The position numbers and the translations under genes are program-made. The notes under the pieces were generated by a model. The model did not search any database. It was not told the origin of the DNA and saw only the letters and a list, made by a program, of their open reading frames with translations. 42,566 nucleotides of DNA, taken from contig CALPIE020000006.1 in NCBI GenBank assembly GCA_943323545.2, positions 1-42,566 of the forward strand, written 5' to 3'. How positions within the stretch are numbered: position 1 is the first letter of the stretch; the number at the start of each line of letters is the position of its first letter. This document shows positions 33,069 through 34,380 of the stretch, piece by piece. The stretch comes from Bifidobacterium breve (GTDB lineage Bacteria; Bacteroidota; Bacteroidia; Flavobacteriales; Flavobacteriaceae).

Positions 33069-34295
33069 ATGATTTTAGAAATGAAAGTCCCTTCACCGGG
33101 AGAATCGATAAAAGAAGTTGAAATCGCAACTTGGCTAGTAAAAGACGGCGATTATGTGGAAAAAGACCAAGCCATTGCCGAAGTAGATTCGGATAAAGCG
33201 ACCTTGGAATTACCAGCAGAAGCTAGTGGCATCATCACGTTAAAGGCAGAAGAAGGCGACGCTGTTGCCGTGGGTGCTGTAGTGTGTTTGATAGATACTA
33301 GTGCCCCCCAACCCCCAAAGGGGGAGCAAGCTCCAAAAACTGATGATAAACCTGTAACAGAAGTAACAAAAAAAGTAGAGGTTGTAGCTAAACCAGTAGC
33401 TCAAACTCCCCCTTCGGGGGCTGGGGGGCATCCATCGCCTACTGCAAAAAAAATATTAGACGAAAAAAGCATTCAGCCATCAGACGTTGTCGGAACCGGA
33501 AAAGCAGGTAGAATCACCAAAGAAGACGCTGTAAATGCCGTGCCTTCAATGGGAACACCAACAGGTGGAAACCGTGGTTCGGAACGCACCAAATTATCGA
33601 TGTTGCGTCGTAAAGTAGCCGAACGATTGGTCGCTGCTAAAAACGAAACGGCCATGTTAACGACGTTCAACGAAGTCGACATGACAGCCATTTATGCGTT
33701 GCGCGAACAATACAAAGAAGAATTTAAAACCAAACACGGATTGGGATTGGGCTTTATGTCGTTCTTCACCAAAGCAGTGACAAGAGCATTGCAATTATAC
33801 CCAGACGTGAACTCAATGATTGACGGACAAGAAAAAATTTCTTATAATTTCTGTGATATATCGGTAGCGGTTTCTGGTCCGAAAGGATTAATGGTACCGG
33901 TGATGCGAAGCGCAGAAACCTTATCGTTCAGAGGTGTCGAAGCCGAAATTAAACGATTGGCGATTCGTGCGCGTGACGGACAAATTACTGTTGACGAAAT
34001 GACTGGCGGAACGTTTACTATTTCTAACGGCGGCGTTTTCGGAAGTATGTTGAGTACACCAATTATCAATCCGCCACAATCTGGAATATTAGGAATGCAC
34101 AACGTAGTGGAAAGAGCCATCGTAAAAAATGGTCAAATCGTTATTGCTCCGGTAATGTTTGTAGCCTTATCATACGATCATAGAATTATCGACGGACGTG
34201 AGTCGGTTGGATTTTTAGTAGCAGTAAAAGAAGCGCTAGAAAAACCAGAGGAATTGTTGATGGATGGCAATGTGAAAAGAGCATTGGAATTGTAG
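33069..34295 (+). CDS. sucB: 2-oxoglutarate dehydrogenase E2 (dihydrolipoyl succinyltransferase)
   Basis: Lipoyl 'EVDSDKATLELPA', E3-binding region 'SPTAKKILDEKSIQPSDVVGTGKAGRITKEDA', catalytic 'SYDHRIIDGRESVGFL'. Confidence 0.96.
   Translation: MILEMKVPSPGESIKEVEIATWLVKDGDYVEKDQAIAEVDSDKATLELPAEASGIITLKAEEGDAVAVGAVVCLIDTSAPQPPKGEQAPKTDDKPVTEVTKKVEVVAKPVAQTPPSGAGGHPSPTAKKILDEKSIQPSDVVGTGKAGRITKEDAVNAVPSMGTPTGGNRGSERTKLSMLRRKVAERLVAAKNETAMLTTFNEVDMTAIYALREQYKEEFKTKHGLGLGFMSFFTKAVTRALQLYPDVNSMIDGQEKISYNFCDISVAVSGPKGLMVPVMRSAETLSFRGVEAEIKRLAIRARDGQITVDEMTGGTFTISNGGVFGSMLSTPIINPPQSGILGMHNVVERAIVKNGQIVIAPVMFVALSYDHRIIDGRESVGFLVAVKEALEKPEELLMDGNVKRALEL
33302..33430. repeat. GC-rich inverted-repeat pair embedded in the sucB coding sequence
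   Basis: TGCCCCCCAACCCCCAAAGGGGGAG (33302-33326) vs CTCCCCCTTCGGGGGCTGGGGGGCA (33406-33430): 23/25 inverted match; span 129 nt = 43 codons. Confidence 0.92.
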
Positions 34296-34330
34296 ATTTT
34301 AGATTGCTGATTTCAGATTTAAGAATATAT

Positions 34331-34365
34331 AAAAATCCCGTTTAGGAAACTGAACGGGATTTTTT
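34331..34365 (+). terminator. Rho-independent terminator after sucB
   Basis: AAAAATCCCGTT-TAGGAAACTG-AACGGGATTTTTT. Confidence 0.88.
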
Positions 34366-34380
34366 GTTTATTTGCGTTAG

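Follow-up and report, generated by a model that had tools for sequence, protein, structure and literature searches.

The locus examined here raises the question of how a pair of GC-rich palindromes came to lie within the reading frame of a housekeeping gene. The gene is sucB (33069..34295, + strand), which encodes the 408-residue E2 component of 2-oxoglutarate dehydrogenase and is contained in the window, i.e. the whole 42,566-nucleotide stretch of DNA that was analysed. The left palindromic arm (33302..33326), recovered by the repeat-family search, carries the repeat consensus on the − strand (CTCCCCCTTTGGGGGTTGGGGGGCA as read on that strand), is coded as APQPPKGE and is without a counterpart in most Flavobacterium sucB genes. 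The right arm (33406..33430, + strand; CTCCCCCTTCGGGGGCTGGGGGGCA) is coded as TPPSGAGGH. The two arms are inverted copies of one another, with 23 of 25 positions complementary (92%), and are separated by 79 nt to give a total span of 129 nt. Each contains a perfect CCCCC-N3-GGGGG hairpin: CCCCC-AAA-GGGGG at 33312..33324 on the left and CCCCC-TTC-GGGGG at 33408..33420 on the right (both on the + strand). Where up to one mismatch was allowed, the hairpin motif was matched only twice in the 42.6-kb window, both times by the sucB arms, compared to 0.10 matches expected from shuffled sequence. The reading frame continues uninterrupted across both arms (APQPPKGE...TPPSGAGG), and the lipoyl, E3-binding and catalytic domains of SucB are intact according to Pfam. 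An earlier, sequence-only reading of this DNA had described two 25-nt inverted arms with two mismatches, each itself a hairpin, which spanned exactly 129 nt and were read in frame within the interdomain linker; our measurements bear out this description. The same reading had called the gene very AT-rich, which is incorrect, as the GC content of sucB is 44%. The corresponding values are 35.5% for the window, 72–80% for the arms and 35% for the interior between them (33327..33405, + strand), a linker-like segment (QAPKTDDKPVTEVTKKVEVVAKPVAQ) that is not conserved with the repeat family.

The arm region folds far better than shuffled sequence, with a z-score of −5.5 both as RNA and as DNA and no shuffle equalling the native value. 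Folding in the mRNA might, as the sequence-only reading had suggested, affect translation of E2. A second structure, an inverted repeat (aaaatcccgttt...aaacgggatttttt-like) with a T-run, is located at 34330–34366 of the window, directly after sucB, and resembles an intrinsic terminator. A terminator role for the sucB arms themselves was set aside, as these are inside the ORF. The very stable fold might instead indicate that the hairpin works at the mRNA or DNA level to adjust E2 expression or folding, and between two of the alleles described below (G000 and G177) the arms are conserved better than their flanks. However, the hairpin lies ∼235 nt inside the ORF, it is absent from most Flavobacterium sucB genes, and the same repeat is present in many unrelated genes; we regard this explanation as very improbable.

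The sucB arms are copies of a 24-bp palindromic family whose members, in frame, occupy loops and linkers in many different Flavobacterium housekeeping proteins. In the genome from which the window is taken (G000; 2.5 Mb in 220 contigs, 87% complete), the repeat CTCCCCCTTYGGGGGYTRGGGGGC is present in seven copies at up to three mismatches, all of them in or at genes, and the reversed control sequence gave no matches at the same threshold. sucB accounts for two of the seven. Another two bracket an insertion in metH (contig C112), the gene for the branched-chain oxoacid dehydrogenase E1 subunit (BCKDH-E1; contig C3) has two more, and the last is within the signal-peptide region of a BatE-like protein (contig C17). 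Additional copies in the host genome had been suspected in the sequence-only reading, which took such motifs to be intergenic repeats of Bacteroidetes; the copies are instead mostly intragenic. The signal peptide of this BatE-like TPR protein (L021:1667–1763) has the repeat at its core, and a degenerate inverted partner was spotted by eye just upstream.

Across the genus, exact copies of the repeat were found in 53 of 300 Flavobacterium genomes, with zero matches for the reversed pattern. A search for the repeat in 99 kb of repeat-free orthologue loci likewise returned no matches. The repeat contains no stop codon in any of its six frames, which encode APQPPKGE, PPNPQRG, PPTPKGG, LPLWGLGG, SPFGGWG and PPLGVGG. 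Both the 24-bp unit and the orientation of pairs are fixed, with all close pairs being outward-facing (30/30); the three ++ neighbour cases have their copies 246–360 nt apart. The spacing of nuclease-free pairs ranges from 15 to about 130 nt.

Most of the repeat-centred loci in other genomes are located within long ORFs of recognisable housekeeping genes, in frame, and most of the remainder lie across the junction between consecutive genes, covering the last part of one and the beginning of its neighbour. At L023, L029, L221 and L230, where a repeat pair lies across a gene junction, both proteins gain new ends; apparently the same gene pair is affected in several species. Relative to repeat-free orthologues, the loops are longer by 5 residues in UvrA, 7 in ValS, 12 in MetG, 20 in PurL and about 9 in E1. 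In IcmF, alignment with orthologues places two repeats around a native segment. At the level of sequence, these alignments establish that the repeat was inserted in frame into loops of UvrA, PurL, ValS, MetG, BCKDH-E1 and IcmF, or replaced part of them. It could be argued that sucB merely has an ordinary Pro/Gly-rich linker whose DNA is palindromic by chance, since the E2 linkers of all relatives are Pro/Ala-rich and variable. This is ruled out by the presence of copies in unrelated genes, elsewhere in the genome and throughout the genus, with repeats inserted in the UvrA, PurL and ValS loops and the reversed-pattern control at zero, and we give it practically no credence.

Comparison of sucB among relatives had been put forward as a way of revealing whether the 129 nt, or each arm, is absent elsewhere. 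The arms are indeed absent from most Flavobacterium sucB genes, but the linkers of relatives are of about the same length, so that the 129 nt does not represent a net insertion. Insertion of a 129-nt unit as a whole, which the sequence-only reading had considered, is unsupported given these linker lengths and the variable spacing of pairs; what recurs is the 24-bp arm, and the interior resembles the native linker.

Four sucB alleles carry the pair: that of the window (G000), one on a G177 contig, a decayed one in G295 and one in G153. A tree of the catalytic domain places each of these on a branch of its own, with well-supported branches forcing four changes or more, and a single gain in one clade is therefore unsupported. 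The repeat-free sucB of G177 is the sister of the window allele. The G177 MAG has two sucB loci (L316 and L317), one with the pair and one without, and one of the two contigs may be contamination. In the G153 allele, the right arm is still followed by native TYASGT, but the ending of the other three is HPSP, and at least two of the events were therefore distinct. The broader proposal that a repeat had invaded a tolerant linker and been kept as protein is upheld by the host-genome copies, the lack of arms in most relatives and the four or more sucB branches.

Between the G000 and G177 alleles, both arms are identical (25/25 and 25/25), compared to 78% and 71% identity in the flanks and 63% in the interior. 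This indicates either that the DNA is under selection or that the arms were renewed by gene conversion or re-insertion. In the G295 allele (L318), the decayed left arm has a paired change, CCTCC/GGAGG, and the hairpin has thus been kept while its sequence shifts. The perfectly matching arms of two otherwise divergent alleles and the paired change would both be expected if template switching in replication and gene conversion make the palindromes and keep them perfect, with persistence where linkers tolerate them and spread by ordinary recombination; the scatter on the sucB tree could also be recombination. Such processes do not readily explain a near-identical repeat shared by dozens of unrelated genes and by 53 genomes, for which copying between loci is required, or a unit fixed at 24 bp with a fixed orientation, and we consider this origin improbable.

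In the same inverted arrangement, the repeats form the ends of in-frame DUF559 (Vsr/I-Bth0305I-like) insertions in metH of the window genome and in relatives. In the window genome, the repeat-bracketed insertion (contig C112:1758–2183; L019) encodes a 125-residue DUF559 domain (PF04480, E = 8.9e-35) between its two repeats. MetH-DUF559-MetH is one continuous frame, with the insertion placed in the linker that joins the cap domain to the B12-binding domain, and a Pfam scan of this MetH detected no intein domain. The metH insertion is likely to be the full-length relative of the sucB pair. DUF559 occupies the same site in several other Flavobacterium, and many have a short plain linker there; on the metH tree, this pattern of occupancy needs 12 changes, of which at least nine are forced. 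Empty and occupied alleles can be compared (e.g. G002/G235): no target-site duplication was seen in the empty/occupied metH comparisons, and the occupied allele was without about 24 nt of linker. When the trees are compared, the shallow clades of DUF559 mostly coincide with those of metH, and much of the scatter may therefore be loss, with transfer not proven. Among the matches listed for 385 Flavobacterium genomes (open frames of up to 460 aa), there was no DUF559-sized insertion in the sucB linker, and descent of the sucB pair from a full element has thus not been demonstrated.

When one genome per species was scanned, 79 related DUF559 loci were identified, all in Bacteroidota or on contigs that look mislabelled. 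About 77 of these are embedded in frame, unspliced, within larger proteins. From flanking motifs, we take the hosts to include MetH (at three positions), MetRS, IleRS, ValRS, MiaB, a CoA-transferase, adenine deaminase and an Acs-like protein. Two MAG contigs (L102 and L150), assigned by their labels to Bifidobacterium breve and Streptomyces griseus, have a Bacteroidota-type metH or metRS with DUF559 and probably come from mislabelled bins. GC-rich hairpins are found upstream of 82% and downstream of 86% of the DUF559 loci, compared to 5% of random windows. Hairpin similarity is 0.687 within a locus versus 0.610 between loci, with a permuted maximum of 0.654. Compensatory changes in these hairpins are suggestive only and were not counted as evidence, because the hairpins had been picked for being paired.

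The DUF559 domain itself is under purifying selection, with a dN/dS of 0.06–0.19 in nine pairs, and residues E72, D74, G75 and H78 were invariant in 63 sequences. The AlphaFold model has a mean pLDDT of 82, and the best structural matches are 3hrl, which is endonuclease-like, and 3r3p, the homing endonuclease I-Bth0305I. These alignments and the predicted structure would be compatible with a working nuclease, cleavage being inferred in the absence of biochemistry. The low dN/dS could instead reflect the position of the domain in an important enzyme.

The repeat and the nuclease domain are also associated at the level of whole genomes. Fused DUF559 was present in 38 of 53 repeat-positive versus 43 of 247 repeat-negative Flavobacterium genomes, and in 31 of 46 versus 50 of 254 once repeats at DUF559 itself had been removed (p = 4e-10, 300 genomes). 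Neither comparison was corrected for phylogeny, and 15 of the 53 repeat-positive genomes showed no fused DUF559. An inverted pair of this kind might alternatively be of the REP/REPIN type, moved by a RAYT (Y1 transposase), with DUF559 as a passenger or having landed between the repeats. REPs are typically short palindromes with inverted dimers (PMC3733652), and RAYTs are common, being found in 172 of the 300 Flavobacterium genomes. However, genomes with and without the repeat do not differ significantly in carrying RAYTs (34/53 versus 138/247, p = 0.29), and mobilisation by RAYTs was rejected on this basis. No RAYT was found in the window genome, which is 87% complete; the end of the repeat is without a GTAG or CGTC tag, and the copies are within genes rather than between them. 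We consider a REP-type origin unlikely.

We favour the reading in which the sucB arms belong to a repeat family that also provides the ends of DUF559 elements, with mobilisation by DUF559 being inferred, and assign it a probability of roughly 0.58. An endonuclease element would have the repeat pair as its terminal inverted repeat, with nuclease-free copies such as that in sucB being non-autonomous derivatives. Cutting by DUF559, followed by break repair, may result in homing-like copying of the element or its ends into loops, although this has not been shown. Copies may survive because the stop-free palindrome costs the host enzyme no more than an additional Pro/Gly-rich loop, in which case splicing would be unneeded. 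Against this account, the interiors of the nuclease-free pairs in IcmF and sucB look like host sequence, which transposition of a bounded unit fails to explain. The absence of target duplication is also left unexplained. Whether there is a distinct class of Bacteroidota mobile element, comprising a splicing-free, homing-like DUF559 with palindromic inverted ends that colonises loops of essential enzymes, and 24-bp non-autonomous derivatives (as in sucB) that remodel loops of host proteins, is in our judgement an even call.

Selfish elements within conserved coding sequence are thought to need introns or inteins. The palindromes of Rickettsia are, to our knowledge, the best-known exception, and we know of no enzyme that mobilises them. 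Coding palindromes recur here in a second phylum, with ends shared with an unspliced nuclease domain found in MetH, MetRS and IleRS. If the link is true, it would provide a testable explanation for the movement of coding palindromes, as well as a source of new protein loops, and would account for the DUF559 domains within unrelated housekeeping enzymes.

Several known systems share some of these features. REPs and REPINs are multicopy palindromes of 20–40 nt, occurring as singles and inverted dimers and forming GTAG and CGTC families (PMC3733652, PMC12306157); intragenic REPs have already been described, as have REP families that lack a dedicated transposase (PMC3733652). The Flavobacterium repeat is similarly short and multicopy, with frequent inverted dimers, but its consensus lacks the GTAG/CGTC tag, its copies are mostly inside ORFs or at gene ends rather than extragenic, and it has no RAYT association. 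MITEs, e.g. Coxiella QMITE1, are short non-autonomous inverted-repeat elements that can fuse in frame to host ORFs (PMC10969869). Terminal inverted repeats are likewise present in the Flavobacterium pairs; however, target-site duplication was not seen in the empty and occupied metH alleles, and the partner would be an endonuclease, not a transposase.

With the EDxHD homing endonuclease family (I-Bth0305I, PDB 3r3p; reviewed in PMC3943268), the metH-type elements share the catalytic fold, the conserved acidic/His residues and a fixed, sporadically occupied site inside conserved genes. They differ in that DUF559 is neither associated with an intron or intein nor free-standing, the host-DUF559-host frame being found at about 77 loci, and in that it is flanked by palindromic inverted repeats, with cleavage inferred only. 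The sucB pair differs further in containing no nuclease.

The nearest precedent for coding palindromes is the Rickettsia palindromic elements (RPEs; Ogata et al. 2000). As summarised in PMC10969869, these are palindromes of about 150 bp with a conserved internal peptide, located in frame in many unrelated genes and retained in the protein. The Flavobacterium repeat is likewise palindromic and in frame in protein-coding genes, but its conserved unit is the 24-bp arm, with variable interior and spacing, rather than ∼150 bp, and it is found in Bacteroidota with ends common to an endonuclease. In the open literature, we found no account of in-frame palindromes in Bacteroidota, alone or with a DUF559 nuclease, and papers that mention DUF559 did not, judging by their titles and abstracts, appear to deal with the subject; subscription literature was not covered. 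Coding palindromes were thus already known from Rickettsia, and it is the link with DUF559 in Bacteroidota that appears to be new and that may define a new class of element.
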